Of a DNA stretch of 64,000 nucleotides, positions 19,792 through 64,000 are shown one piece after another (the stretch's first letter is position 1; every line of letters begins with the position of its first letter). The notes beneath the pieces are model-generated. The model was not told the origin of the DNA and did not search any database. It saw only the letters and a program-made list of their open reading frames with translations. The position numbers were made by a program, and so were the translations under genes. The DNA is from Paracamarosporium sp. OC-R06-R3 (Eukaryota > Ascomycota > Dothideomycetes > Pleosporales > Didymosphaeriaceae), in contig JACVRA010000064.1 of assembly GCA_019828545.1 (NCBI GenBank), positions 229,060-293,059 of the forward strand, in the 5' to 3' direction.

Positions 19792-21546
19792 ATGAACGAA
19801 GCCTACAGCAACGAGCTGTGCGCGATCCTCCGCAAAGATGGGACATTTCACGCGATCTCCAGCCTGAGCGAGTGGAATTTGAGGAGTAGTTCGTGGGGCG
19901 GGAGCGACGAGGACAGGGCGCAGACGGTACGTATGCGGATGCAATGTCAAACTCTAACCACCTATCCAGCAAGCACTAACAAAAATGTAGCTACCCAGCA
20001 AGCAGCTTCGCAATGAGGTCGGCGACACGATGCCATTCTTCTTCATGGAGTACCCGGAATACGCGCCGGCTGTGCAGGAGATTTCTGAGATAGATGTGGA
20101 GACTGAACGCACGGACGGATCACCCGAGGAGCATGTTTCATTAAACACGGCCATCATCGAGGAACCCGAACTCGAGGAACTGGAAATTGAGGAACCAAAA
20201 TTCGAGGAACCCAAGATCGAGGAGCCCAAGATCGAGGAACCAGAAATTGAGAAGTCAGAAGTCGAACAACCAGAAGTCGAAGAACCTGAAATCCAAGCAC
20301 CCAAAATCGAGGAGCCAGAAGCCAAGGAGCCAGAACCCGAGGAGCCGGAAATCGAAGAGCCGGAAACCAAAGAGCTAGGAACTGAAGAGCCAGAAACTGA
20401 GGAGCCAGATGTCGAGGAGCCAGAACTCAAAGAGCCGGATGTCGAGGAGCTAAAACTCAAGGAGCCAGAACTCGAGGAGCCAGAAATTGAGGAACCGGAG
20501 TCTGAAGAGCCAGAAAGTGGGGAATTAGAATTTGAGGAGTCAGAAATTGGAGAACTGGAATTCGAGGAGTCAGAATTCGAGGGATCAGAACTCGAGGAAC
20601 GGGGGGTGTACATTCCAGATTGGAGCCTAAAGATTGCGCAAGCCAGTTTCGCCGCAGCTACCATTTCTTCATTACTAAAAAAGAGAGAGAGCGGGTCATT
20701 TACCGGCACATCTCCGAAGACACCTAAGAATACGCCTACGAAAACGCCGTCAAAGATACCCGTAATGACACCTGGAAAGAGCCCCAGGAATACGCCTTCA
20801 AGAACGCCTTCAAGTGCGTCTGTAGATGCGCGTTCAACGACACCTATCAAATTACATAGGAGAACGTCTTCAGGTTTATCAGAGACACGTTTCACGACGC
20901 CTAATAGCACGCCTAGAAGAATACCTACGCGAACGGTTTCAAGCGCGTCTTCACATACGCGTTCAGCACCCAACAACACGCTTAGAAGAACGACATCAAA
21001 TGTGTCGACAGGGTCGCGTGCATCAACGCCTAATAGTGCGCCTAGAAGAATACCCACAAGGACACCTTCAAGCGCGTCAATAGAAGCACGTTCAACGACA
21101 CCCATCTTCCTGCACAGAAGGACGCCCTCAAGCGCGTCTTCACAGCCACGCTCACCGACACCCAATACCACGCCCAGCAAAATACCCACAAGAGCGCCCT
21201 CAAGCGCGTCTTCAAACTCCCGTTCAACAACACCTATCATCATGCAGAGAAGAACATCCTCAAGCCTATCTCTAAGAACCCCCACCAAAACGCCCACGAC
21301 TCCCGCGAGAACATCGATGCAAACACCCGCAAAGACACCCTCGAAAACTCCTACCCAAATCCCCACCAAAACGCCCTCCAGCAGACCCTCCAGTTCCCGT
21401 CCCATCTCGCCCGCGAGGTCCTCTACCAACACTAGGTAAGCACCATTCACTTCAGCAAAAGAGAGTAGCATGTACTAACTCCCCATAGTCCAGGTAGCAC
21501 TTCAAGAGTGCCAGTTCCTAGAAGGACTCTCAGTGGCGCGATATGA
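19792..21546 (+). CDS. Low-complexity repeat protein (EEP repeats, then Ser/Thr-Pro/Arg repeats)
   Basis: Not recognised as a known family. Exons 19792-19926, 19991-21435 and 21489-21546 join in frame to 545 residues; introns are GTACGT...ATGTAG and GTAAGC...CATAG. The N-terminal 100 residues are ordinary sequence. Residues of about 100-250 are a run of pentapeptide-like repeats such as EEPEI and EEPKI, very acidic. A short non-repetitive linker (VYIPDWSLKIAQASFAAATI) follows. Residues of about 270-540 are basic Ser/Thr-Pro repeats (TPSKTP, RTPSSAS, RSTTP, RRIPTRT) with longer units of about 40-45 residues. Acidic then basic halves suggest a disordered, phosphorylatable scaffold, but no function can be assigned. 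The opposite strand is also open over most of exon 2, as a by-product of the repeats. Confidence 0.72.
20150..20600. repeat. 15-bp coding minisatellite (EEPxx repeats)
   Basis: DNA repeat of about 15 bp with the pattern GAGGAGCCAGAAATT and variants, running about 30 times in frame inside the repeat-protein gene. Codon-level divergence between units is visible, so the array is not newly expanded. Confidence 0.85.
20720..21400. repeat. Coding repeat array of Ser/Thr-Pro-Arg units
   Basis: Imperfect repeats encoding TPxxTP and RTPSSASxxxRSTTP units. Three to four higher-order copies are recognisable, each beginning near RRIPTRT or KIPTRAPSSAS, for example around 20930, 21050 and 21180. Confidence 0.8.
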
Positions 21547-42917: not shown

Positions 42918-44643
42918 TCACGCCATCGCAGCGTTCGTGTGAGTCGCGACATCCTTCTCACTCTCACCAACATGAGCCGCTTTGATTTGACCGGCCTCGT
43001 CGTCGCTGTCGTGGAAACCGTAGTGGCGTGCCATGTCCGCAACACCATGGTCATCAAGGAAAGGCAGCTCCTTCGCAGCACGAACATAAGGGATGTTTTC
43101 CAAGAAGCCCTTGGCGAAGATGAGGTCGATCTCTTCCAGACTACGCTGCTTCGTCTCAGGATAGAAGATATAGATGAGAGGGAAGAACCCGGCGTTGATG
43201 CAAGCGAAGACAAGGTACGTGCCCCATCCAATGTTATCGATCATGATTGGAGTGATCATAACAACTGTGAAGTTGAAAAGCCAGTTGGAGCACGTAGAGA
43301 CAGCGTTGGCCTTTGCACGAGTCTTGACAGGATTGACCTCAGCCGGGTACAGCCAGGGCAACGGAAGCCATGTCGCTCCGAAGAAGGCAATGTAGGTGAA
43401 CAAACCGACGGCGGCGCCCTTGGCTGCAGATGGTGTGCCGGGAATAAGGCACGCCATGACGAGCAACATGGACAAGCCTTGGCCTACAGTGCCGATGAGG
43501 AAAAGCTTACGTCTTCCAGTTCGCTCGATGATGAACCAGGAAACGGTCGCAAAAATACTGTATACGATCATGTTCACACCACCAAGGAGGAGAGACATCT
43601 GCTTCGTCTCATGGATCGAGTTTTCGAAGAGGAGCGGGAAGAAGTAGATGACCGCGTTACATCCACCAATCTGTTGGAAGAGCTGAGACGATGCTCCGAG
43701 CATCATGCGCCTAAAGTGTTGCGTCTTGCCGCCGGTGAAGAGAGCACTGTAAGGTGTGACGCCGCCCTTGTGACCGGAGGCTCGGATGCTGTCTACGATA
43801 ATGTTGATCTGTAGTGTGGTCTCTTCGTGGTCGGTGGGTAGCCCCTGAAGAGCAGCAATGACTTTGGTGGCGTCATCCGCCCTATCCTTCGTCAAAAGCC
43901 ATCTAGGGGATTCTGGAAGCCAGATGGGAACAATCAGGACAACCAGTCCGAAGATGATCTGAAAGGCAATGGGGAAGCGCCAGGTAAGATCTGGAGGTCC
44001 ATACTGGCAACCGTAGTCGACCCAGTAAGCGATCAAGGTGCCGAATGCAATTACGCCACCTTCAATACAGATAAGTAGACCACGATTCTTGGTACTTGAA
44101 CACTCTGCCTGATAGGTAGGAATCGTAGATGTGTTCATACCATTTCCCACGCCAGTAACAACACGACCAATGATGAATTGTGCCGTAGCTTTGTGACCTT
44201 TGATGGCGGTGACCTGGATGATGACTCCGAGGATCATGATCAGCGCACCGCAGATCATAGCGCGACGACGTCCGAGGAGATCACCCCAGACAAGGACACT
44301 AATAGCCCCGAGGAGGCACCCAATTTCGTAGATGGCTGTCACAAAACCTTGCCATGTAGCATTGTTGTATGTTTCCGGAAAGTACTCCATGAACGGATCA
44401 GCAGATATTATACCAGACATGACACCCTCTAGATGTGTCATTAGTGTTTGTCCAGGAATCACGTGCTCGGCAATACTCACGGTCGTAACCGAACAACAGG
44501 AAGCCAGTGGTAGCCACGACTGATACAAGCAGTCGTAGGGGCCGGTCGGACAAGCCCAAAAATGTGGGTATCTCTGGATTGTAGACCTCACGGGTTTCTC
44601 TTGTGGGGGCCTCATCGGCCTTGTTGGGATCGTGAGAGGCCAT
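42918..44643 (-). CDS. MFS sugar (hexose-type) transporter
   Basis: Plasma-membrane sugar porter of the major facilitator superfamily. Exons 44643-44481 and 44428-42918 give 557 residues; the junction rebuilds the classic helix-1 motif LLFGYDQGVMSGI. Twelve helices are visible. Sugar-porter signatures include GDLLGRRRAMICGALIMILG, GRVVTGVGNGMNTSTIPTYQ with PTYQAE, RWLLTKDR preceded by PESP, SSQLFQQIGGCNAVIYFFP, ERTGRRKLFLIG, PWLYPAEVNPVKTRAKA and PETKQRSLEEID. The first domain-end motif PESPRW is intact. Substrate not determinable. The ORC2 gene is divergent, 1.2 kb away. Confidence 0.94.
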
Positions 44644-45886
44644 GGTGTCGTTCCTGGATCTAGACAGTCAAGACAAGATGATCTAGCGAAGGTCCGACAA
44701 AATAATGGGGGCTCGATCGCGATGCAAAGAAAGTGAGGAGTGAGATCTATGGGGGGTGCACACGGCCTTTATCTACTCGTCCAATCCACCTTCAGCACCC
44801 CATGGCACCAGCATGGCTAGGATCGTGACACAGCGCGTCTTCCATGCAGGACTTGCAGATTGTGTCCGACAAAGTGGTTCCCCCATGATGAAGATTTCAA
44901 AACGTCATTGGATGCGAGGTTGACCGGAGTCCCCGCATGGGGTATAGTGGATCTGGAGAAAATTGCTGGGGGTTAGCGTGTGGTAAGAGAAGGCGGTATG
45001 CACCCTTCCCGTGAGAGGTAACAGGCTCCAAAGCAAGCTTTTTCGGCATTCCCGTTTGGTTTGATGACTTTTTGAGCCGCACCCTGGTCAAAACTGGGGC
45101 GACGGGAGGGGCTGCAGATCTTAGGGCCAAGCGAGCACCAGTGACGTTGCTTTGCGTTGCCGCCAGTGCTTGACCGAGCCTTCTGCGACGCCGAAACCTG
45201 GGACAGGTGCAGATAGCGTGCGCGTGCCAGAGGGATTTCACAATGCATTTCCCGAGGCTAACAGAATTAGCCCCCAAAGAGCTCTCATCCGACCAGTTGG
45301 ACGAGAATTCCTAGGGCCAAGATCAATTTTTTGTGGACTCTTTTCATAGAGCTTGTGAAAAAGGACTTGAACATCACGCCGCCAAGGTGACGGTTCTTGT
45401 TGGTGCCCATTCAAGAATCCGAAGCAGCGTCTTATCTGCATAGAGGCTGCTTGAGTGTGATGCCAGGCTTGGAAGGTGGTTAGTTCGTGGGTTGCGGACA
45501 ATCTTGCCGCTGATCTTGCGTGCTGTGGACCTCGGTCTTTTGCCGTGGTGCATTGCGGTAAGAATGGCCGAACTCTGCCCTGTTGGCGGCATGCTTGTAT
45601 GATGAGCGATATTGTGGCAGGCGCCGTCGGTATCAGGCTGAGCGATTTTGTGGGACTTGGGGGCGTGACGCGTTGCTCATCCAGTTTGCATGACCCTGCA
45701 AAGATTTACTGTCGGGTTGCGGGAGATGGGAAGCAGATGTGAGGTCTGGAGTGATCGGTGCAATGCTTGGGGAATGCGCACAGGGTACTCGCCAAGCTTC
45801 GAGGTCGGCACATTGAAACGCCGACTTCGACGCGACGCGACTTTTCGCAGCTGAACACTGCGGCACATCAACGCCCTGTTCGCGAC
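44644..45886. promoter_or_regulatory. Divergent intergenic region sugar transporter/ORC2
   Basis: About 1.24 kb with both promoters. The ORC2 frame is open for 43 codons upstream of its ATG but begins there with GTG only, so it is treated as 5' untranslated. No other gene seen. Confidence 0.4.
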
Positions 45887-47641
45887 ATGGGAAGTGCTAA
45901 GCGGAAAAGGGACGAGCAAGATGTTGATGATGTTAGCCCACGCAAATTACGGACGCAGCTCATGGAGGAGGAGGAGGAGGATAGCGTGAGCGAGCTTGAG
46001 GCGCAAACGCCCTCAAGGCGTGGCAGGGGGCTGGTAGCAGAAAACGGGACTCCACGATCCATCTTGAAGAAGTCGGGTCTTGCAAACGAGTTCAATGCCA
46101 CTCCGAGATCCAACCGCCGCCTATTATTCGCAACGCCCACGAAGGCAGCACACGACGAGACTCCGAATGGCACGCCGACCATCGTTCGCAACGCAGACCG
46201 CAGCGCCCGCCGTAAAAGCAATCGCAGGTTGATCGACCGTACAATCAATGGTGTAGACAGCGATGAGGAAGTACTGGATGAAGAAGAGACGCTTGCTCAG
46301 CAGATCTTGAGCGATGAAGACCATGGGCAGAACGAAGAGCAAGACACAGAAGCTGCTGCTCAGGAGGCTGTTCCTGTGCCAGAAACACCGTCGAAACGTG
46401 GGCGAGGACGGCCAAAAGGCTCGGGGAAGCATCAGTTGGCAAGGGCGAGAAAGCAACGTTCGCCCACGCCACCTAATGAGTTACCAGCGCACGAGGAATA
46501 CTTTTGGCAGAACCGTCCCGGAGGCACCAAAACTTCTAATAACACTCTGCCTTCCCAAAGTCTGTTGAACCACGATGAGTATTTCGAAGCGATGCAATCT
46601 TACGAGGATCATCACGAACCTGAAAAAGAGTTCCTGCTGGAATTACACAGTCGCGCGTACGACCAGTGGATATTCGAGCTGGAAGAAGGCTTCAACATCT
46701 GCCTTTACGGGTACGGTTCGAAACGAGCAATTGCTAGCGAGTTCACAGCACGTGTGTTCCGGCATCTCCTCGGCCAAGCACCCTATAAGGGAACAAAGAA
46801 GACCCCCAAGATTGTTGTCATCAATGGCTACGCACCAGGCATTACCCTAAAAGATATCCTTACAACGATCGCATCCGCTGCCATTCCCAACAACGCAAGA
46901 TTACCCAATCAGCCCTCTTCACTGTTGGCTCATATCTTGGATCATCTGTCTCGAGACCCACTGCCGCATCCTCTTTTAGTCGTGATCAACTCGGTAGATT
47001 CGCCGAATCTGCGGAAATCTCCGATTCCGGCGATGCTTGCCTCGCTAGCGGCGCATGCTTCGATTAACCTTCTCTGCACAGCGGATACGCCCAACTTTCC
47101 CTTGTTATGGGACGTGGGCTTGAAAGCACAGTACAAATTCTTATTCCATGATGCAACGACCTTTGCTCCTTACGATGTCGAAATAGACACGGTAGAGAAT
47201 GTCAATGAACTTCTCGGGCGCAGCGGAAGAAGAATCGGTGGGCGCGACGGAGTTGGCTTTGTTTTGCGTTCCTTACCCGAACATGCAAGAGCGCTGTTCC
47301 GTATTCTTGTCACTGAGCAGCTCGCCTTGCTGTTCATGGATGACGGAGAGCAAGTTGATGATGAGGACGTCACTACTACACCAAAGAGTAAGAAAAATGC
47401 GCAGCGTGGTGTGTCGGAAGCCACGCAGGGAGTGGAGTATCGTACCCTTTACCATAAGGCTAGGGACGAGTTTGTCTGCACAAGCGAAGTCGCTTTCCGA
47501 ACGCTTTTGAAGGAGTTCCACGATCATCAGATGATTGAAAGCAGGAAGGACTCGATGGGGACAGAAAGGCTAGTGGTGCCTTTTCGCCAGGAAGAGCTGG
47601 AGACTCTGGTGGAGGAATTATCTGGTGGCGATGTATTCTAA
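45887..47641 (+). CDS. ORC2: Origin recognition complex subunit 2 (ORC2)
   Basis: Nuclear subunit of the six-protein origin recognition complex that loads MCM helicase. Single exon, 584 residues, starting at the first in-frame ATG (MGSAKRKRDEQD). The N-terminal 210 residues are charged and disordered with an AT-hook-like KRGRGRPKGSGK and several SP/TP sites. The ORC2 core begins ELHSRAYDQWIFELEEGFNI, then CLYGYGSKRAIASEFT (the degenerate P-loop position), IVVINGYAPGITLKDILTTI, PLLVVINSVDSPNLR, LLCTADTPNFPLLWD and FLFHDATTFAPYDVEI. The C-terminal winged helix covers RTLYHKARDEFVCTSEVAFR to the end, VEELSGGDVF. Confidence 0.95.
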   Translation: MGSAKRKRDEQDVDDVSPRKLRTQLMEEEEEDSVSELEAQTPSRRGRGLVAENGTPRSILKKSGLANEFNATPRSNRRLLFATPTKAAHDETPNGTPTIVRNADRSARRKSNRRLIDRTINGVDSDEEVLDEEETLAQQILSDEDHGQNEEQDTEAAAQEAVPVPETPSKRGRGRPKGSGKHQLARARKQRSPTPPNELPAHEEYFWQNRPGGTKTSNNTLPSQSLLNHDEYFEAMQSYEDHHEPEKEFLLELHSRAYDQWIFELEEGFNICLYGYGSKRAIASEFTARVFRHLLGQAPYKGTKKTPKIVVINGYAPGITLKDILTTIASAAIPNNARLPNQPSSLLAHILDHLSRDPLPHPLLVVINSVDSPNLRKSPIPAMLASLAAHASINLLCTADTPNFPLLWDVGLKAQYKFLFHDATTFAPYDVEIDTVENVNELLGRSGRRIGGRDGVGFVLRSLPEHARALFRILVTEQLALLFMDDGEQVDDEDVTTTPKSKKNAQRGVSEATQGVEYRTLYHKARDEFVCTSEVAFRTLLKEFHDHQMIESRKDSMGTERLVVPFRQEELETLVEELSGGDVF

Positions 47642-48772: not shown

Positions 48773-49900
48773 ACAAGATCAGATGCATTCATACACACGT
48801 GTCTGCTTATATATATAAGTTCAAAACGCCAGAAAGCAGTTCTTGTGGCGTGATTGTTCAATGATTCCTTTAGGAGTTCGAGACGACTAATTTGTGTTGG
48901 TGTAGTCGTGACACACCTTTAAAATCTACTACTCTCTGACGCTGATATTGACGTTTATGCGTGGCTTTGAGTGGTGCCTCATCGCTCTGGCCATGGTGTT
49001 GTTCCAGGTTCGGGCGAGTAGGAATAGCCGAACTAAGCGCCAGACACTCGGGTCCAAAAAAGGCTTTGTCCCACTGCACTTGGCTTTTAGCATCAATAAA
49101 AATTACGGCGTACTAGCAGTTTTCGCCTGGAGCACGATCTATTGCTTGAAGTCAGTAATACAATCGACAAGTGACTTACTCTTTGAGCTCCCTAAATCCT
49201 TTGCGTTAATGCGCTATCGAAATGACCACTTGAGTACTTGCAACATTTCACGTCCGCCTACGGAACTTACGACACATTCACAGTACAGTTGTCTAGTCCT
49301 CGAAATGTTTGCATAAGACCCTGGGTTCACGCAAGTCTGGTTCTTTAGTCTCATTCGTCATCTCGTATGCACAGACTGGTCTGTTGCGCCAGAGCCGGGT
49401 ACTTACCCTGGACGGCTTAGTTGCGAATCGCACATTGGATGCTCGCGGTGTACTGCCGCGCAAGCATATCCGAAAATGAACCAATCCCGAGAACCAGTTT
49501 TCGCTCTCAGCCTTCCTAGCCTTTATCGTCACCCTATTGTTTTTTCAGCTGTTCAAAGAAACCCCCACAATGAGTGTCTCCTGGGTTGGAAACAAGGAAA
49601 GAGATGAGCGTCAAGCGCTGCGGCACAGCAACTTGTCTTTAATTGAAGCTTCAGAGACTGGCTGATGTGTTTGTCTCAGCCCATGTACCTATTTGGGATG
49701 CTGCGGGTGGCATATCTCCACGAACCAGGTTCGGCGGCTGACCCTGGCTACACCTTTTGTGTCTTATTCCTATCTGCCCTCCGAGCTGAGTCTGAGCTTA
49801 TTTCAAAGCTGAATCTTTCCTTTCAATAAACCTTCCCTTCGCTTCCTACACTGTAATCCTGCCCGTCTTCCTCCCACTTTTTCATTCCTTATCCGCCAGC
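48773..49900. other. Intergenic between the CFEM gene and the GT8 gene
   Basis: About 1.1 kb. No coding signal; the last 150 bp before the GT8 ATG are pyrimidine-rich promoter-like sequence. Confidence 0.4.
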
Positions 49901-51413
49901 ATGGCTTTTGATTGCATCCGCCCGTATCGGTACTCTGCCCTACAGCCGAGTGATTCTGATTCTTCGCACAAAGTTTCCTCTCAATGGACGACGTGGGTGT
50001 CTTCACGCCGGATGCGCACGTTGATCACACTTATTCTAATAGCGATTATTCTCTTCGCATTATCATCGTTCACAACTATATCTTCACATATTCAGGATCT
50101 CTCGCCTCAGCACGTATACAGCAGTCTCAAAGACGACAGACCTCCATTGGACTCAGATAGAGTGGAAATACAGCATGCGACCCCAACAGCGAGCAAAAGC
50201 GTTCCAGGTAGCCAGCCAAATCCTTCTATCATATCGAGCGGAGGCACTGGTCAGCCAAAGGAAACAGGGAATGAACCCATATTGCTCAACGGAGGCAAGC
50301 CCTCCGACGGCAAGCCAAAAGACACCAAGACTCAGGAGCCAAATGTATCTCAGCCCCAGCAATCACAAACGCAGCAACAGAAAGATGACGTCGACTGGTC
50401 GTCCTTTGCCTACGTGCAATACGTCACCAACAGAAATTATTTGTGTAATTCGCTCATGATTCTTGAAGCGCTACATCGTCTAGGTGCCAAAGCTGATCGC
50501 ATCATGATGTACCCGGAACATTGGAAGGTCCCCAAGACAAACGAGGCGACAACGGAGGAAGCGCGTTTCTTGATTCAGGCGAGAGACCAGTACAAAGCGA
50601 AGTTGGTCCCAATACAACTAGTCACATTCGAAGACCGAGGTGATGAGACATGGAAGGACAGTTATACAAAGTTGCTAGCATTTAACCAGACGCAGTACAA
50701 GAGGGTAATCTCTTTAGATTCCGACGCTATTGTACGACAGGTACGTTCTGCCTTTTCACTCCCATTCCCATGTTACTCTGTTCCAAACGTTTTTCTCGCT
50801 GCTAACACTGGCCTTGTAGACCATGGACGAGCTGTTCCTACTCCCTAACACTCCCGTCGCCATGCCTCGCGCCTACTGGCTCGACCAACTCTTCCTTTCC
50901 TCCCAGCTCCTCGTTATCGAGCCTTTGGGCACCGAATGGTCCCGCATCCAACGTTATATGTCCTCCAACCCGAAAGGTGGCTTCGATATGGACATTCTGA
51001 ACACGTTATACAAGAACAGCGCGCTCGTCCTCCCGCATCGACGTTACGACCTCCTTACCGCTGAGTTCCGCAAGGAATCTAACAAGCACGAACCATACCT
51101 CGGTACGAAAGAAAAGTGGAATGGAACAAAAATATTGGAAGAGGCAAAATTTGTGCATTTCAGTGATTGGCCTTTGAAGAAGCCATGGATTCAGGACGAG
51201 CCGGGACTAGAGGAACAGACGCCAAAGTGTGCAAAGGTGGGAGAGAGTTTGGACTGCACAGACAAGGATATCTGGTTGGGGTTCTACAAAGGATATTCGA
51301 TCAAGAGGAAGGAGATATGCGGTAGGGACTATGACGAACGGCGAAGGTCGACTGTGCTAGAGCGTCGTGCGCAAAGCAAGCCTGCATGGTTTGAAGCAAT
51401 TGTAATGCGGTGA
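49901..51413 (+). CDS. Golgi-type GT8 glycosyltransferase (GlcNAc-transferase Gnt1-like)
   Basis: Type II membrane glycosyltransferase. Exons 49901-50740 and 50820-51413 give 477 residues. A cytosolic N-terminus is followed by one membrane anchor at about residues 40-62 (LITLILIAIILFALSSF), then a Pro/Gln/Ser-rich stem to about 160. The catalytic domain starts SSFAYVQYVTNRNYLCNSLM and contains the DxD-like RVISLDSDAIV, then PVAMPRAYW, KGGFDMDILN and KFVHFSDWPLKKPW. This layout matches the fungal group annotated as glucose N-acetyltransferase 1. The donor sugar is inferred from family only. C-terminal Cys and basic residues follow. Confidence 0.88.
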
Positions 51414-52101: not shown

Positions 52102-53319
52102 TCATGTGTTCGACTCTGCATGATCCGGCTCCAGTTTGTCTTTCAGCAACGTATCGAGTGCTATCCCAAGATCGTCACCTTTACCATTTGGATACGCTTC
52201 ACCAAGTGTAGGATGAACAATAAGCCCAGGTGTGAATACTTCGAAAGTCCGCTCCTTCATCCAATTATCTATGCGCTCCCATTGCATGCACTGATGGTGC
52301 CCCTGGTCGAGGCCAATCGGGATCCGGGTCCTATGTAAGTGTGAGTAGAGAAACAAGATGAGCGTATATCGATACCTACGTGGCACCCCACTGCATTGGG
52401 AAAACGGTAAGATCAGGATTGCATTGCAGGGTTTGGAAAAGGACATTAAGACAGTGCTCTGGTCACGTTAGTCGTAAGGTAACTTCGGTATTGATGAAAG
52501 TCGAAACCTACCAACGTGATGCTCGATCAACATACGCTCTTTCTCACTCTTGCCAGGATAGTAGTGATCGAAGTACAGGTAGTGGTGAATTCGTTTGACG
52601 CCTATTGGAAGTGAGCCATGATGTTAATCGAGGGTGGAAACATTATGTGGGGCATACAATGCAAAGAGTGATAGACGGACAGCGTAGCATAGTAGCCGGA
52701 GCCATCTGCTAGCTCCACCAGAGCAGGGTGCTCGCTCCACTCGCCGATCTCCTCTTTAGAAAGGCGGATATTCTGATCTAGTCTTCTATTATAACAAATA
52801 CATTTGATTAAGCTAGGTATCCTCACACTGTATAATCTTTTCCCATGCTTCATCTGACTTTTTTGAAGGAGCTCCAAATTGCTTGTGCAAGCGATCTGGG
52901 TTCGTAGTACCGTTCCGAAAGAAGATGTTCGATCGGTCCCAAAGCTTCGCTTCGAATGCTATTGCTGCTTTTGCTGGCGCTGAAAAAATATTGTTGATAA
53001 GCTTTAGTCTCTGACAAAGATAATACGAATACTTGCTGTGCACAAGGTCTGGTCCATACAGACCATAGGGACATTTCATAGATATACTCCACCCCCAGAC
53101 GGCGAGAAAGAATAGCAAGTTAGCACCGAAGATAACACCATGAAAGAACACAATGCAATTAATTCTCCGTCCTGTGGTGTTCGTGGAAGGAATGAGCGCA
53201 TCCTTTTCGAGAAACGTTGCGGTCTCCAAATCGGCGCTGCTGGGATTAAACTCATTATCGGGGCAGGGTTGATACAAACCTCGCTCTCTTTTGGTAGGAA
53301 GAGAAGATGATCGATCCAT
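52102..53319 (-). CDS. UstYa-family (DUF3328) oxidase
   Basis: UstYa-type proteins catalyse oxidative cyclisation or other oxidations of RiPP precursors and of some other fungal metabolites. Five exons, 53319-52829, 52785-52658, 52601-52512, 52458-52380 and 52330-52102, join in frame to 338 residues. A cytosolic N-terminus leads to one membrane helix (about residues 53-76, IVFFHGVIFGANLLFFLAVW). The lumenal domain begins YGPDLVHSKY and contains both family motifs across junctions: YHSLHC (HxxHC) and HHVEHC (HxxHC), with the partner segments WSEHPALVELADG and LFQTLQCNPDLTVFPMQW. The stretch HQCMQWERIDNWMKER is also typical. It is somewhat long for the family, with a C-terminal extension. Divergent neighbour 2.5 kb away is a repeat precursor peptide. 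Confidence 0.9.
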
Positions 53320-55867
53320 GGTGGGTTTAATTGGAAATTTTCAGGAATCTGTCAGGGAGGTATCCTCAACGTAGAGAATGCGAGAAGAGGAAGGGGATGC
53401 CCCCAGACTCTGAGAGCGCATCATTGTCACCATCTATGGATGCATCGATAGTCACGTTGAGAAGATCATCGAACACAATTTGCGTCATTGGCTGGGTTTG
53501 GTGCTAGGTCACTATGGGAGATCCCGCAGTTCGTATACACACGGTGTCTGGTTCAGGCGGTGTGTTCGTGTATTTGAGACACAAAGGTACTGGGATTGAC
53601 CACACGATGTGCTGGTCATATTGCACAACCAGAAACGCACAAGCCTCGCGATTATTAAGATTTTCAGTTGAATGAGGATAATCACCAATTCCGTTTGAAA
53701 GATTTATGAAGGTTAAGCTTCTCACACCGGTACGGCTGAAAGCTTGGTGTCACTGTTGGCAGGGAAGGAACATCTGTAATCACATCGAGTGCATGCGTTA
53801 TCATAAATATTCTGAGTTGTTCAAGGTCTAGAATGTCTGGCTACCACGTCATGAGCACGCTACCAAGACGTACGCAAGGTGCTCCATGGGGTATCTTGAT
53901 CGATCATGTGAAATGGCAGCGTTTCACCAGGTTCGATAATGGCCGGGTTAGCAGATGCATTAAATCAGGTGTCTCGGTCCGAGTCCGGAATATGCGGCTG
54001 AACCCTCCCTTTCTCTTGACACCATTGGACGCTGCGAGCAAGCGGCAAAGGCAACGGCCCTGGCTAACATTGCGGGGAAATCAACGATCAACCTGGAACA
54101 TCACAAATTCATCAAAACAGGTTGTGCAACCAATTCCCCCAATTACAAAGTCGTGCTGGAAGGGCTGCAAATTCTTCGACGCCAGGTTCTGGCATGTCTG
54201 ACTGCATGGTGCTTGTGTAACGCGCTAAATGCTCCCCATTGCTCTGTACCTCGCGCCATGTGGAAACTTTTGGAATGATTCAGAGCAGAGAACCGAATCT
54301 ATTCATGGAAGTAATAGCGATTGCATCGTGGTGTACACTTCGATCATGCGATCAAGTCAATCAGTCAACGGAGATACAAGTCAGCAACACCATGCCATCG
54401 AAACCTTGGCATAGTAACCTTACAGGATAACAGGATATCCATTATGGTTATTTAGCCACCTAAAACTGTGTAAACAATATACACGATGGATTAAAGTCGC
54501 ATTTGCGGTAACCAAACGCATAATCCCTGGAAAACGCATCGTTCACAAGTGTAAAGCTGACGCATGATAGCCGAGATTTCTGAAAAGATAGCGTTGTACA
54601 TTTCAAAGCACAGATGGACTCTCTAGCTTATTGAACCGAAATGTTGAGGCATTCCAACCCATACCCTATGCATGATCTACGTTACTAGATTGTACACCTG
54701 ATGGTCCAGTAAAAAGGGGCCCGTACCTAAATGGGCAATTTACGGCGCATTTCGTCTCAAAATAGTCTTTGAAGGAATTCGTCCGCTTCCTGAAAGGTTG
54801 AGGATTTCCACACCACTTTCAGGGTGTTTGCTACTAGTCTCCCAAATACCACATTGTGTATGAAGTCCACAACTGTAACAGGAATAGTAGCATCCAATCC
54901 AAATCTATACCATAGAAATTGTTTATAGCGACCTACGGCCGCAAAATCGCCCAAGTCAGCACTAACTTGTCTGCATACTAACGCTATTCTTTTTACAGGA
55001 CAGCCCAGCCGCAGACAACCAGTCACAACTTTACCATCTGTTTCACATGAATACTTCTCAACTTTTTGCCAAAAACACGGTGTGTATTCAGATATAACAA
55101 TACACTGCGCTCGAGACGAGGATAGTTTCCCATTTGACTAACTCAAGCTCACGTAATACAGATGGAGTATCGCAGGGCCTCGCTCCGCCCCCCTCGTATG
55201 GAGGTTTGTCAATGATACACCCCATATAGCTTATACGGGTCCACGTGCGTAACAAGAGCTCAGTCAATTTTAACGAAAGAAGCAGGTGCAACTGATATAG
55301 TTTCTAGACATTGAAGATCCTATGTTGGTAGTTCAATGCTGTCATATCGCATTCACAGCGTGTCGAATACCTCAGGTGCTACTACGTGCCAAGCTGCAGG
55401 GAATAGCAGAGTATTCATGTATCGTAATGGATGGGGTAACTGAGACATGAGCACATCATTGCTTCTGATACTCGACCTTGCATAGACGCTTGTACAAAAT
55501 TAATTGACGGAGCACCCCAGGGATGATCATACCATTTATAAAGTCAAGAATGGGACAGGCCGAACGCACACACATCAGAGACTCCCTATGTGGTGTCACA
55601 CCTGCATACATGCAAGCACAGACCAAAGGAATCACGTCATAGGAGAACTATGGGACTGCACGTTGAGGAGAGAACGGATCGAGTCGTTGAGAGCAAGGTG
55701 ACGGATTGGGCATGATCGTATTGCAATCTATCGAACAAGTACAAATACCACTCTCTGTCTCTCCTCTTATCTCCCTTGTAGCTCAAGATTGACATCACCA
55801 CCTTTCTAATCGTTCCTATTCCAAACTCAATACCTGCTGAAACATCATAACATTCTTCGCTCTCAAC
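53320..55867. other. Gene-poor region between the oxidase and the precursor gene
   Basis: About 2.5 kb, more AT-rich than the housekeeping blocks. Open frames at 53504-53725 (minus), 53833-54201 (plus) and 54757-55026 (minus) have no family features I recognise. The 54757-55026 frame has somewhat protein-like composition but no start or splice context I can defend. Both promoters must lie here. No tRNA or transposase motif seen. Confidence 0.4.
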
Positions 55868-56594
55868 ATGCAGTCCAAGGTTATCCTCTACCTCATGGCT
55901 ACCGTTGCCATCGGCGTCATCGCCTTACCAGCCGAAATGAGTGGTGAGTGATCGCAGATTCCTCATAAATCCATATTGGACTAACGAGCATTCAATATTT
56001 AGTTCGCTCTGTTGAGCTTCGGGAGCCGCTTCGACGCGCTGTTTCGCAAGCAGACGCCGCCTGGGATGGCAAGGCCGAGAAGCGTATGTACAGCTCAGTG
56101 TTTCTTTTTCACATGCTCAAGAAATACATGAGGTATCTGTGCCAAATTTTCGCTCTATGTTGACGTTATATACACGATTTAGGCGCGGAAGTAGATGCTT
56201 CCTGGGACGGTAAAGCGGAGAGGCGTGATGTTGATTCCTCCTGGGACGGAAAAGCAGAGAAACGCGATGTTGACTTTGCGTGGGATGGAAAAGCAGAGAG
56301 GTATGCAACAGACATAAGTTGCTGTTACGCACGGAAATCATCTACTAAAGCTATTCACAGACGCAATGAGGCTACTGATGCTGCCTGGAACGGCAAGTCG
56401 GAGAAGAAGCGTACCGATGTTGATTCCGCATGGGATGGAAAGGCCGAGAGGTATGAATAGAAACCCATTGCTGCTACTTGTTTAAATACCATATTGAAAC
56501 TACCTACAGACGCGGCGAAGCTGTTGATTCTGCGTGGGACGGGAAAGCTGAGAAGCGTGAGGTCGATAATGCCTGGGATGGGAAGGCTGAGTAA
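55868..56594 (+). CDS. Secreted repeat precursor with Kex2 sites (KEP/RiPP-type precursor)
   Basis: Predicted secreted pro-peptide of 149 residues from five exons: 55868-55943, 56003-56083, 56183-56300, 56361-56450, 56510-56594. A signal peptide (MQSKVILYLMATVAIGVIAL, then PAEMS) and a short leader with an RR site precede eight repeats. The unit is close to DVDSAWDGKAE and each of the first seven ends in KR, RR or KKR, the Kex2 cleavage signal; the last unit stops exactly at KAE before TAA. Repeat 5 varies (WNGKSE). Frame continuity over all exons supports the model. Introns 2, 3 and 4 each split the Arg codon of a Kex2 site, so exons are repeat modules. No Cys and no Tyr occur in the repeats, so it is not the Cys-bearing alpha pheromone. 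Processing and any modification are inferred. Confidence 0.85.
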
Positions 56595-56885: not shown

Positions 56886-57884
56886 CTAAACCTTCCTGCT
56901 TTTCTTGACCTCCTTGACTTTCTCGTTCCTCTTTAGCTTCTCTTTAACTTCTCTCCTCTTCGTCTCTTCTATAGCTTTCTTCTTCAGCTTCTCTTCAGCC
57001 GCCCTTCTCTCCATCGCTCTCTCCAACTTTGCCCTCCTACGCGACACGCACTTACGAACCCCACAAGCACAAATCCTCTTAGTCGTCAACCCGTAATACG
57101 CCTCTCCATAATCAACACTTAATTCCTTCCCCTCCGGAATATCCTTAATTGCCTCCACCGCCATGATCCTCGTAGCCCCCACCCGCATAATACGAAACAC
57201 ACAATCCGGCGCACAAGAATGATTAATGAACCTCGTCCAATTCCCCTTGTGCTCGGCATCGATGTAAACACTCGTATTTGGATCCAGCGAGTCACCCACT
57301 CCCATATCACCAATGTTTATCTCCATAAGGTAATCGCCATCGGTGCCTTGCATGGAAGATATCGTCTTGAGTTCGCCCGAGTACCAGCCCAGAATAGTCC
57401 CGCTCTTGAAGGCGCGCTTCGTATAAACGCCTATGCCCCGATCCTCCGTCATGCATAACTCGAACGACGATTCCCAGTCCGAGCTCGCGGCCTTCCATGC
57501 GGAGAGCGTGTGCGTGCAATTCATATCGTCGCAGACATCTTTTTCGTAGCAGGACTCACCTACGCAAAGGGCGTTCTCGGAGCCGATGGCGAACATTAGG
57601 TCGTCGGTATTTTGCGGTGGCCAGACGCTGCTGGCAGGGAAGGTCGTGGGGTAGTGTTCATGGCGAAAATCGGAAGAAGAGAAGATGTACTCGTTAACTT
57701 GCTTTAGGCGGCCGTTGTGAGATTTGACTGCATCAATCACTCCGTCGGGGGTAGTATACCAAAAGTACTGCTTTCTACTGCGAAGACGTCTGACAATGAG
57801 GGAGCCACGACGGGCGTTGGAGTGGTGTTTGGTGACTCTTGTAGGTCTTGGAGGGCTGCCATACGTGGTAGCTGAGATTCTCAT
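56886..57884 (-). CDS. SET-domain protein (protein lysine methyltransferase-like)
   Basis: Single exon, 332 residues, starting at the first ATG (57884, MRISATTYGSPP). The SET domain runs from about residue 145 to 285: FELCMTEDRGIGVYTKRAF, ILGWYSGEL, then FINHSCAPDCVFRIM (the NHSC cofactor and substrate motif) and GKELSVDYGEAYYGL. A post-SET-like CACGVRKC follows. The C-terminal 45 residues are a Lys/Arg/Glu-rich helix ending KEVKKSRKV. No pre-SET zinc cluster is visible, so substrate is unknown; histone or non-histone lysine is possible. It is convergent with the repeat-precursor gene, 292 bp apart, which may be coincidence. Confidence 0.88.
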   Translation of the reverse strand: MRISATTYGSPPRPTRVTKHHSNARRGSLIVRRLRSRKQYFWYTTPDGVIDAVKSHNGRLKQVNEYIFSSSDFRHEHYPTTFPASSVWPPQNTDDLMFAIGSENALCVGESCYEKDVCDDMNCTHTLSAWKAASSDWESSFELCMTEDRGIGVYTKRAFKSGTILGWYSGELKTISSMQGTDGDYLMEINIGDMGVGDSLDPNTSVYIDAEHKGNWTRFINHSCAPDCVFRIMRVGATRIMAVEAIKDIPEGKELSVDYGEAYYGLTTKRICACGVRKCVSRRRAKLERAMERRAAEEKLKKKAIEETKRREVKEKLKRNEKVKEVKKSRKV

Positions 57885-58322
57885 ATTGAAGTGAGTGTTA
57901 GAAAACGCGTAGATAGAATGAAGCAACGAGACGAAACAATTTTAGTCGTATAAGTTTTAGTGTAGCCTGGGGAAACATATTGGGGAAACATATTGCAAAC
58001 TTATAGATTGAAAACGCCTTGATTGTTAGATGGACTATTTGACTTTGTGGAAGACACAATGTGGAAGGATGCAGGTACTGGACCTTACTGGCGCAAAGAA
58101 CGCCAGCACTTGGAACTGAGACGGTGAAGAGGAATAGCATTGTACGAGGACGTTCAATTGAAACGAAAGTCTAAGAATATGCACAAAGGCATGAGCAAGA
58201 AACAATGGAAACAAAGAGGGTTGCTTGTCAACGTCTTGGTTTGTTGCAGGATGCAGCTCTATGTCCATTATACACGGTTGTCTTACATTTTTTACATGTT
58301 TGTACAGGCAGGTGGTGTTTAT
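57885..58322. other. Intergenic between the SET gene and the MRPL7 3' end
   Basis: About 440 bp carrying the SET gene promoter and the MRPL7 3' region. No gene seen. Confidence 0.4.
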
Positions 58323-59923: not shown

Positions 59924-62628
59924 ATGAACGGCGTTTCGCGCTTCCTGAGCCGGCGCGACAAGCATCACCATGAGAAGCGTTCGCTGAAGCACCCGCTCGG
60001 CAAAGTACGTCCATCCTCTCCTTCTTCCTCGCATTCTTCGCAATATCTACTATGCTCCGCCGACAATGGCCTGCGCGACAGCCTGAACCACCGGCCGGAC
60101 TCGACCTGTCTGCAGCAGCTGTCTTCGGCCTGGAGGGCCTTTGTCGGTGGCAGCGCCCATTGCGTATTTTCAAATCCTTTTCCCGCACACATTGCACCCT
60201 ACTATGTTCGAGTATCGACTACACCTCCCTCTGACTATTTGACCTTCCAGTCACGCCCCGCTCCACCCTCCGTCTCTCCAGAGCTCTACAAAGTCTTCAC
60301 CAACGATGAGCTCAAGTCTACAGACAAGGATGCCGACAAGAGAAAGGTGCGTACATACACACTCGCAACAACATCACCTGCTGAAAATGATGGATCCAGA
60401 CCCTTCTTCAGCGTCTGCAGGCTGCTGGAATCAGTACTCTCCATGAAGAGCAAGTCAACTACGCCCTTGCTTGGTCCCCGGATAACCTCGACGAAGCCTA
60501 TGACCTTCTGATCCTCGCGAATGAGTCTCTCGAAGGCGAACTTAAAGAATTCGATGGAAATGTTGCAATGCTCGGGGCCGTAAACCGGAATATGGTGACA
60601 TGCTATCTCGACGCGCTCTTGTTCGCCATGTTCGCTCGGATGGACAGCTTTGAGGCAATGCTATATGACGAATTCAACGATGAACCAAGAAAGAAGCTTG
60701 CGGCTATTTTGCGGCTATGGGTCAACTTGTTGAGGACAGGCAGGCTCATCAGGGTTGATTTCACGAAGCGCCTCCAGGATGCGTTGGCACAATGTGGCTG
60801 GGAAGAAGCTGCAGAAGTGCGCCAGCAAGACGCCTCTGAGGCGTTCACTTTCATCACTGGCTCACTGGAACTACCTCTGCTGACCCTGAAGATGGACATC
60901 TACCATACTGGGCGAGAAGATAGGGAGGACGATCACAAATTCGTCAATGAAAGACTTTTGGAGGTGGCCATTCCAGAGGAGGAGGAAGTAGACAAAGGCG
61001 TCACTCTCGAAGATTGCCTTGAAAATTACTTCAACAATCGGATCGAAGTCAAACGCTACCTACAACGACAGAACACCTTGCCTTCGATTCAAACCACCGC
61101 CAAAGAATCCGATAAGAAGGAGACCCTGCATATTGAAACTGTGGAGTTGTCCGGTCCGGATACGCCATTAGTAGCTACACCAACTACGTTTGACCCACCA
61201 TCACCTGCCACTCCAGTTCGGCCCCTCTCGGGACGCCGAAGAGGGGACAGTATATTCACGGAGAGGTACACCATTCACGGTACACCAAATGAGTACAGTC
61301 GTTTTGATGAGAAGAAACACTTGGAAGAAATGCTGGATCATAGCTCCTCAGGACGCCCTCGGTCAGCATCCCTCCTTAGAAAAGAAGTCATGATGCCCGC
61401 ATGGCAGTTCTTCAGCCTCATCCCTTGGTACACGGATAACGTCCCCAAGACGGATGCTCAAGTAGCCGCACACTTTTCTTCCAAGCGACCTGTTCTTGGT
61501 ATCTGCCTTAAACGGTATACGATGCTACCTAACGGCACACCGAAACGACTCGACACCTATGTCGATATACCGCTAGAGATCGGTCTACCGCATTTCATCT
61601 CAGACGAGCGTATGCAGGATGAAGGGCCTCTATTTGGGAATTTCAAGCTGGTGCTTCAGTCAGTTGTCTGTCATCGCGGGGTTTCAGTTGACTCCGGTCA
61701 CTACGTATCACTAATACGCGCAAACAAGCCACCTTCCCAACAGCGCCCTGATACATCGCACACTGAGAAGGGCGACGAAGAGGATTCTTGGCTACGCTTC
61801 GATGATCTGTCGAATCCGCGGATAGCAGAAATTGATATTCAGAAAGCTTTACGTGAGGAATCGCCTTATCTGCTGTTCTACCAAGTCCAGCCGATAGACG
61901 AGGAGCTGGCATCTAGGGGTGATCCTCCCAGTTATGATGAAGCCCAATCCATAACACTTTCCGGGGCGCCTTCCAAGGAGACCCTGAGCTCCGAGACTGA
62001 CGCTACTACTACTGATACCGACACTGGAGAATGGGAGAAGATTAGTTCGGTTGAAGCGCCTCCATCAATAGTGGGTTCTATTACAGATTCTGAGGCCCCG
62101 GGCCGGAATAGCATGTCAAGCAATCACCGAAGTAGTATTGCCATTGAAGATCTCGACAACAGTGCGCAAGGTACCACGCGGGGTCGACCACCTCCTACAC
62201 CAGACGAACAACGATCAAGTTTCCTGTCTACATCTCGGCGCAATTCAAAGGCTTGGCTACCTGGTAGTAAGAGCCGTCCTACCAGTGAAAGCGGCGAGAA
62301 TCGACTATCTATGACGCTGTCCCGGCTAACAGGCAGAGGCAGTAAAGACAAACTTGTGGCTTCGGACAACGGCCTCGCAGAAGACCCCGTTATCGTCGTC
62401 AATGAGGTTCCTCTCAGTGCGGAGAGCACTCAAACGATAAAACCTCAGCCTCAGCCTCCCGTGAGCCCAGGGAAGCTGTACAAGGACACTAGCGTGTCTC
62501 GCAGCAAGAGCAAGAGACACTTCAGGAGTAAGAGTCGGGAACCGGTGCCGCCTGGCTCGGAGGGTGTGCAGGTTAAGGGCAAGCGCAAAGGGAAGGATCG
62601 GCCTGAGCGCGAATGTGTTATTATGTGA
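59924..62628 (+). CDS. Ubiquitin-specific protease with C-terminal CaaX box
   Basis: Cys protease of the USP/UCH family that removes ubiquitin. Exons 59924-60004, 60251-60346 and 60421-62628 give 794 residues. The catalytic Cys is in AVNRNMVTCYLDALLFAMF; the QQ-D-S-E motif appears as VRQQDASEAFTFI. The His box is HRGVSVDSGHYVSLIR, and WLRFDDLSNPRI supplies the third residue. The middle insert is phosphorylatable and variable. The CYLDALLF context departs from the common GNTCYMNSxLQ form. The last 120 residues are Ser/Arg/Lys-rich and end KDRPERECVIM, a CVIM CaaX prenylation signal after a polybasic run, implying a membrane-attached enzyme. Intron 1 (60005-60250) is long and might hide another exon. 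Confidence 0.9.
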
Positions 62629-63625: not shown

Positions 63626-64000
63626 GGATGTGATTTGATGGAGTAAATGGAGAGTTTAATAATATACATCCCATTGTGTAGTCCCGTTTCTGAGATCTGG
63701 ATGAGGCTTTTCCCCACTCATTGGACCATGATGACGTAAGGGGCATATCCAATAACGTGTTTAATCATCGGTTGGGCCACATCACCTGTTCGGCCATCCC
63801 AAAAACCACCAAAAATCCGAAAAACAGATCCTTGCAATCTCCACAACTACAAAGTAATAATATCTATGACTTTATATCTAGCTTCTCCTCTCTACTTCAA
63901 ATCCCCTATTATATTTTTAAAATAGGAGCTTTAGTACTTATTAAGATACAGCGTTTTGGCCCCCAATTGTTGTATCGGCGCAGGTAGTCAAAAGGTCTGT
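63626..64000. other. AT-rich block at the right window edge
   Basis: Composition shifts sharply to AT from about 63830, for example TATATTTTTAAAATAGGAG. A short plus-strand frame at 63721-63987 has no domain. The composition resembles repeat sequence altered by RIP, next to a tRNA gene where elements often insert, but no terminal repeat is visible before the window ends. Confidence 0.4.

Follow-up and report, generated by a model that had tools for sequence, protein, structure and literature searches.

A probable two-gene, dikaritin-like peptide locus with a tryptophan-centred repeat precursor in Paracamarosporium sp. OC-R06-R3

Dikaritins, such as ustiloxin, phomopsin, asperipin-2a and victorin, are fungal ribosomally synthesised and post-translationally modified peptides (RiPPs) which share a signal peptide, a precursor with multiple cores separated by Kex2 sites and a nearby gene for an UstYa/DUF3328 oxidase with two HxxHC motifs, the latter regarded as the class-defining enzyme (as cited in PMC12048977). 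The 2015 definition of the group also asked for a cluster gene encoding a tyrosinase, methyltransferase, peptidase or transporter (as cited in PMC12048977), and functional clusters without such accessory enzymes were reported later (PMC12048977). The Tyr-to-Phe ether of asperipin-2a is made by the UstYa/DUF3328 family (PMC12186524). Since the ring of victorin is closed between Phe and Leu (PMC9233826), the Tyr-ether pattern of ustiloxin, phomopsin and asperipin represents a sub-pattern rather than the dikaritin class itself. According to a survey of 7878 precursors, DUF3328 genes accumulate beside the genes of Kex2-processed repeat proteins (KEPs), mostly in the adjacent position, and where a DUF3328 gene is the neighbour, 65.6% of the precursor repeat sequences contain Tyr and 20.5% Trp (PMC7329392). 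Here we describe an UstYa gene and a Kex2-processed repeat precursor gene lying side by side in the Pleosporales fungus Paracamarosporium sp. OC-R06-R3, in a window (the whole stretch of DNA analysed, 64,000 nucleotides) which represents the last 64 kb of the 293-kb contig JACVRA010000064.1 of a 43.1-Mb assembly; the contig stops at position 64000 of the window, which limits the view there.

The two genes are divergent and separated by 2548 bp (Table 1), and we consider them a probable minimal RiPP locus of dikaritin-like character, the core of which is centred on Trp. The similarity to the known dikaritins comprises the signal peptide, the multicore precursor and the neighbouring enzyme with two HxxHC motifs, and in the single DUF3328 protein the locus resembles the asperipin-2a pathway (PMC7329392). 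In contrast to the known members, the core of the present units is WDGKAE with Trp as the sole common aromatic residue, the Tyr of the ether cross-link is absent (0 of 8 units), the scans of the window revealed neither a tyrosinase nor a P450, and no peptidase was recognised within approximately 40 kb. The Trp repeats beside DUF3328 genes that were classified as type P-3 KEPs by Umemura are similar, but in that type W is accompanied by P, while the present units contain no Pro; the comparison covered the KEP types as described in the main text of the survey (PMC7329392). CctR, CctO and CctP2 of the cyclochlorotine pathway belong to the same enzyme family and have the HxxHC pair, CctR being a luminal binuclear copper hydroxylase, but they act in a non-ribosomal peptide pathway with no repeat precursor (PMC12435403).

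The precursor starts with a hydrophobic segment, followed by a short pro-part terminating in RR and by eight units of the common pattern DxxW[D/N]GK[A/S]E, which are closed by KR, RR, KKR or the stop codon. With a signal peptide predicted from hydropathy and by eye, it has the properties of a KEP, i.e., secretion and several similar repeats flanked by KR, RR or KK, as well as those of a dikaritin precursor, with cores between Kex2 sites beside the enzyme gene. Each of the eight units contains one Trp, no Tyr and no Cys, and the only Tyr of the protein is located in the signal peptide. Trp is the only aromatic residue common to all units, with an additional Phe in unit 4, and it is followed, after D or N and then G, by an invariant Lys three residues downstream. 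Examples of the units, with the computed [M+H]+ of the unmodified peptides, are DVDSSWDGKAE (1208.507), DVDFAWDGKAE (1252.548), EVDNAWDGKAE (1233.538) and TDVDSAWDGKAE (1293.559). Thus, the secreted 149-residue, eight-unit precursor, its divergent spacing of about 2.5 kb from the oxidase gene and the Tyr- and Cys-free units with one Trp each, all noted in a preliminary description of this DNA, were found again in the five-exon model, with KKR added to the KR and RR sites, while the claim that every unit ends in KAE was valid for seven of the eight: unit 5 ends in KSE and has N instead of D after the Trp. The arrays in the same genome that are discussed below under L014, L017, L019, L020, L027 and L030 are each contained in one open frame, in contrast to the present one, which is cut by introns. 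Introns 3 and 4 are placed as if an exon and an intron had been copied as one piece; in sequence the two introns are only weakly similar (a level reached by 42 of 1000 shuffles).

The 317-aa product of the UstYa gene matched PF11807 with 154.2 bits and contained HSLHC at residue 182 and HVEHC at residue 214, the two HxxHC motifs typical of the dikaritin enzyme, together with one hydrophobic segment from approximately residue 56 as judged from hydropathy; both the identity of this gene and its exact ends agreed with the preliminary description. This model includes a GC-AG intron, the removal of which resulted in LVHTPAKAAIAFEA, aligning with LVYTPALDAIAYEA of the Letharia columbiana protein P0001. 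A 336-aa model retaining the intron was rejected in favour of the 317-aa one because it contained an insertion absent from the relatives and scored lower with Pfam (140.9 bits). The protein of the lichen fungus L. columbiana (HO173_011308) was identical to the 317-aa model in 175 of 272 residues (64%), while the other UstYa genes of the same genome gave only local matches with 25–42% identity. Six relatives were found at E ≤ 0.001 with the 336-aa query (Letharia columbiana, Aspergillus floccosus, A. bertholletiae, a Penicillium, a Joint Genome Institute fragment and one further sequence). Judged from its sequence relatives, the enzyme appears to represent a lineage of patchy distribution, the spread of which could result either from horizontal transfer or from loss. 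When the 336-aa model was compared with the sequences of the PDB, no match appeared at E up to 10.

Table 1. Coordinates of the UstYa-precursor locus and of the neighbouring genes, in window positions.
Feature	Position	Strand	Description
Sugar transporter gene	42921-44768		Two or more genes separate it from the UstYa gene; distance 7.3 kb
ORC2	45755-47638		Pfam scan
Glycosyltransferase-like gene	49796-51413		By eye; no Pfam match over the cut-off
UstYa/DUF3328 membrane oxidase gene	52102-53319	-	317 aa, six exons
UstYa exons	53319-53037, 52979-52827, 52777-52658, 52601-52512, 52458-52380, 52330-52102	-	Gene model
GC-AG intron of the UstYa gene	52980-53036	-	Inferred, 57 bp
Intergenic region	53320-55867	.	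2548 bp, no gene recognised; no Pfam match in three frames tested
Kex2-processed repeat precursor gene	55868-56594	+	149 aa, five exons
Precursor exons	55868-55943, 56003-56083, 56183-56300, 56361-56450, 56510-56594	+	Gene model
Predicted secretion signal MQSKVILYLMATVAIGVIA	55868-55924	+	Hydropathy maximum at residue 5; cleavage point judged by eye
Pro-part and eight-unit array	56003-56594	+	Interrupted by three of the four introns
Intron 3	56301-56360	+	Within the second codon of the dibasic site behind a unit; position and phase as in intron 4
Intron 4	56451-56509	+	Same place and phase as intron 3
SET-domain gene, protein-methyltransferase type	56886-57941		Convergent with the precursor gene, ~290 bp away; next gene on the precursor side
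Mitochondrial L5 gene	58495-59268 and upstream		Pfam scan
Ubiquitin protease gene	60391-62625		Pfam scan

In the proposed pathway the signal peptide would direct the precursor into the secretory route, where Kex2 would cleave after each KR, RR or KKR and Kex1 would trim the basic residues, yielding eight Dxx-W-[D/N]-G-K-[A/S]-E peptides. A single match to a Kex2-type P-domain gene was present in the genome. CctR, a member of the DUF3328 family, is anchored in the membrane and has a luminal catalytic domain; two copper ions are bound by its HxxHC pair, and its reaction needs O2 and electrons (PMC12435403). By analogy with CctR and other family members, the UstYa protein, held by one transmembrane anchor and with both HxxHC motifs in the lumen, would bind two copper ions and oxidise the cores of the adjoining precursor, which is its presumed substrate, with O2. 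The oxidation would most likely occur at the invariant Trp, since it is the only aromatic residue common to all eight units, and may lead either to a cross-link with Lys or Asp as the partner or to a hydroxylation. The more specific version, in which copper and O2 would be used to join the Trp indole of DxxWDGKAE to the invariant Lys or to the neighbouring Asp/Asn, giving a Trp-Lys or Trp-Asp macrocycle from two genes only, is put forward tentatively and we regard it as rather doubtful. Links of this kind are known from radical S-adenosylmethionine peptides, the Lys-Trp bridge of streptide being a product of this chemistry.

The assignment of the oxidase to the precursor was approached through the other UstYa genes of the genome, in which 75 exon-level UstYa matches corresponded to approximately 50–55 genes after grouping. 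Ten-kilobase regions were defined around the other UstYa genes, 47 in all; 20 of these were read, roughly in the order of the UstYa score, and a Kex2-repeat precursor was recognised by eye and by a scan in 11 of them (L014, L016, L017, L018, L019, L020, L022, L024, L027, L029 and L030). All 11 precursors had at least one divergent UstYa gene at a distance of 0.87–3.18 kb, measured from the repeat frame to the closest UstYa match in that orientation, and the pair in the window has the same divergent layout. Under random orientation, with a chance of one in four per pair, ten divergent pairs out of ten would have a probability of ~1e-6; the presence of several UstYa genes in two of the regions, where a divergent one is more readily encountered, weakens this value. 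Recurrence of the same layout at 11 of the 20 regions makes a coincidence unlikely and upholds the preliminary view of UstYa beside a Kex2 repeat precursor as a dikaritin-type pairing. Together with the published excess of DUF3328 genes in the neighbourhood of KEP genes and the fit of the window pair, the recurring divergent pairs form the strongest argument for assigning the oxidase to the precursor.

The precursors of these regions shared the architecture of the present one but had visibly different cores. In L014 (G000:C200:15000-24999) a precursor with six QWYDLTYID units was flanked by two UstYa matches and a P450 match followed approximately 5 kb further on, the whole looking like a larger dikaritin-type cluster; the ten further divergent precursors included cores such as TEFAPWYRATNILPASD, QYHGKNVVKIADE, ATYAPLVYVGGLK, DSDDIWLWK (L027), ADIQAFPTWI (L030) and, in L029, PAYVWASAS. 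Extra unit clusters in L014, L016, L017, L024 and L030 are apparently these arrays read in other frames. Elsewhere in the genome (G000:C23:92428-96666) two UstYa matches were accompanied by a split tyrosinase match within 2 kb, a combination found in the ustiloxin and phomopsin clusters.

The same pairing bears on the best surviving alternative, according to which the precursor is processed to linear, unmodified secreted peptides (a signal, an effector or an antimicrobial), while the UstYa protein acts elsewhere or is a chance neighbour. About 78% of the fungal KEPs in the survey have no DUF3328 gene nearby (PMC7329392), linear peptides are common among KEP products (PMC9769878) and a genome of 43 Mb carrying about 50 UstYa genes leaves room for a chance neighbour. 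However, one UstYa gene per approximately 0.8 Mb would fall within 5 kb of the precursor by chance in an estimated 1% of cases, and the uniformly divergent layout of the 11 other pairs, even if made easier in the two regions with several UstYa genes, also speaks against a fortuitous arrangement. On this balance we consider linear peptides unlikely, at a level still worth keeping in mind.

Several observations weigh against the oxidised, dikaritin-like product. A search for the precursor in 5.8 billion proteins gave no homologue at E up to 10, with 207 candidates having words in common; being word-based, it reached only proteins of similar length that share short exact words. On the basis of this search, no other species was seen to have a homologous pair. 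The literature searched gave no Trp modification by an UstYa enzyme. Trp is, furthermore, not enriched beside DUF3328 genes in the survey data (20.5% against 24.5% without such a neighbour; PMC7329392). The 20 UstYa regions, taken in a rough score order, are a non-random sample, and a mechanical rule detected repeat clusters in 11 of the 20 against 2 of nine control bins, a small set (four fetched regions and five bins of the window), so that by count alone the excess at UstYa genes is weak and not significant (Fisher p 0.13). The two control clusters were a poly-Arg tract in L034 and a three-member cluster at window position 21247, in a Ser/Thr/Pro-rich frame beside a 15-bp repeat; no precursor was seen by eye in the nine bins and, when both low-complexity clusters were dropped by eye, the counts became 11 of 20 against 0 of nine (Fisher p 0.005). 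The predicted structure of the Letharia relative was poor (mean predicted local distance difference test score of 43.9, with six sequences); in this model the two HxxHC motifs were located, with low confidence, within helices 175–188 and 199–221. Finally, the SET-domain gene adjoining the precursor gene is a possible partner, although it is taken here as unrelated to the pair.

Whether the array is a non-functional repeat or an artefact of gene prediction could be judged from the units themselves. Such a reading might be suggested by the precursor having no homologue in the protein collection and by four introns in a gene of 0.7 kb, but the differences between the units were mostly synonymous. 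Comparison of the 28 unit pairs, which are mutually non-independent, gave 79 synonymous differences per 84 sites and 14 non-synonymous ones per 420 sites for the six codons of the core (WDGKAE), while in the three residues ending before the Trp the corresponding values were 44 per 61 and 44 per 191 sites. The saturation of synonymous sites with a nearly fixed core argues, at the level of codons, that the core peptide is under selection. A scan for similar units, which misses units with an intron-split dibasic codon, gave four in the window and at most two in three shuffles. Given, in addition, the hydrophobic start, the dibasic spacing, the consistent splice sites and the single intact copy (the precursor matched the genome at this locus only), we find an artefact or a decayed repeat very improbable.

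An alpha-type mating pheromone precursor, which has the same architecture of a signal peptide and Kex2 repeats, is the least probable of all, since neither of the two Dothideomycete pheromone motifs described in PMC6339444 (two Cys, or PYGxPxG) occurs in the units, none of the eight starts with the Ste13 dipeptide XA or XP, and a DUF3328 neighbour was almost never found beside the pheromone KEPs of the survey (PMC7329392). It was judged on the unit sequences because three exact DNA patterns (two of them based on PMC6339444) had zero matches in the genome, leaving the true alpha-pheromone gene unaccounted for; a diverged, intron-split or unassembled gene would escape such patterns.

The preferred assignment to a dikaritin-like RiPP locus thus concerns an extension of a described kind. 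A Tyr-free core had been proposed to lie outside the known chemistry, which was overstated: Tyr is found in only about two-thirds of the repeat sequences near DUF3328 in the survey (PMC7329392), victorin is joined through other residues (PMC9233826), and the cores of the UstYa-linked precursors L027 and L030 of the same genome are also Tyr-free. With Tyr-free DUF3328-linked cores and the Phe-Leu victorin already on record, the locus adds a Trp-centred member and not a new class. The unit strings themselves occurred neither in the literature searched nor in the results of the protein search. Having only two recognised genes and a Tyr-free core in which Trp is the sole common aromatic residue, it offers a compact test of the chemistry of a lone UstYa enzyme, while the approximately 50 UstYa genes, with divergent pairs of differing cores in 11 of the 20 regions, form a panel for linking the UstYa sequence to the modified residue. 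Furthermore, the closest UstYa relative found comes from a lichen fungus, a group covered by a 2025 survey which, in the two gene-cluster clans it studied, reported no repeat precursor (PMC12048977).

The surroundings of the pair were characterised by Pfam profile scans of 42 window frames, a subset of all frames. No tyrosinase was matched on the contig, none of the listed P450 matches was inside the window (92 of 353 P450 candidates were scored) and no peptidase was recognised within ~40 kb of the pair in the 42 scanned frames, an M24 metallopeptidase being located at about this distance. The idea of a minimal cluster lacking tyrosinase, P450 and transporter was in line with these scans for the first two, and for the transporter it has to be qualified by the sugar transporter gene 7.3 kb away. 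Neither this transporter nor the M24 metallopeptidase nor the SET-domain gene has an evident link to the pair. The recognised neighbours are of ordinary kinds; genes farther to the left, besides that of the sugar transporter, include those for a glucuronyl esterase and an SNF2 helicase. The locus is AT-rich, with 46.0% G+C against 51.9% elsewhere in the window, and only one of 118 overlapping windows of equal length was as low, itself sitting on the locus. The L5 protein was 92% identical to that of Paraconiothyrium brasiliense, followed by other Pleosporales with 81–86% and less, and no Letharia protein was present among the matches listed (the best 120 of 628). This places the host in the Massarineae, probably in the Didymosphaeriaceae, and a lichen-forming host, which the Letharia match of the UstYa protein had suggested, was rejected on these identities. 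A 15-bp tandem repeat of approximately 30 copies occupies positions 20156-20600 of the window and is open in both directions, in a minus frame (19957-21474) with no Pfam match and in a plus frame (19991-21436).

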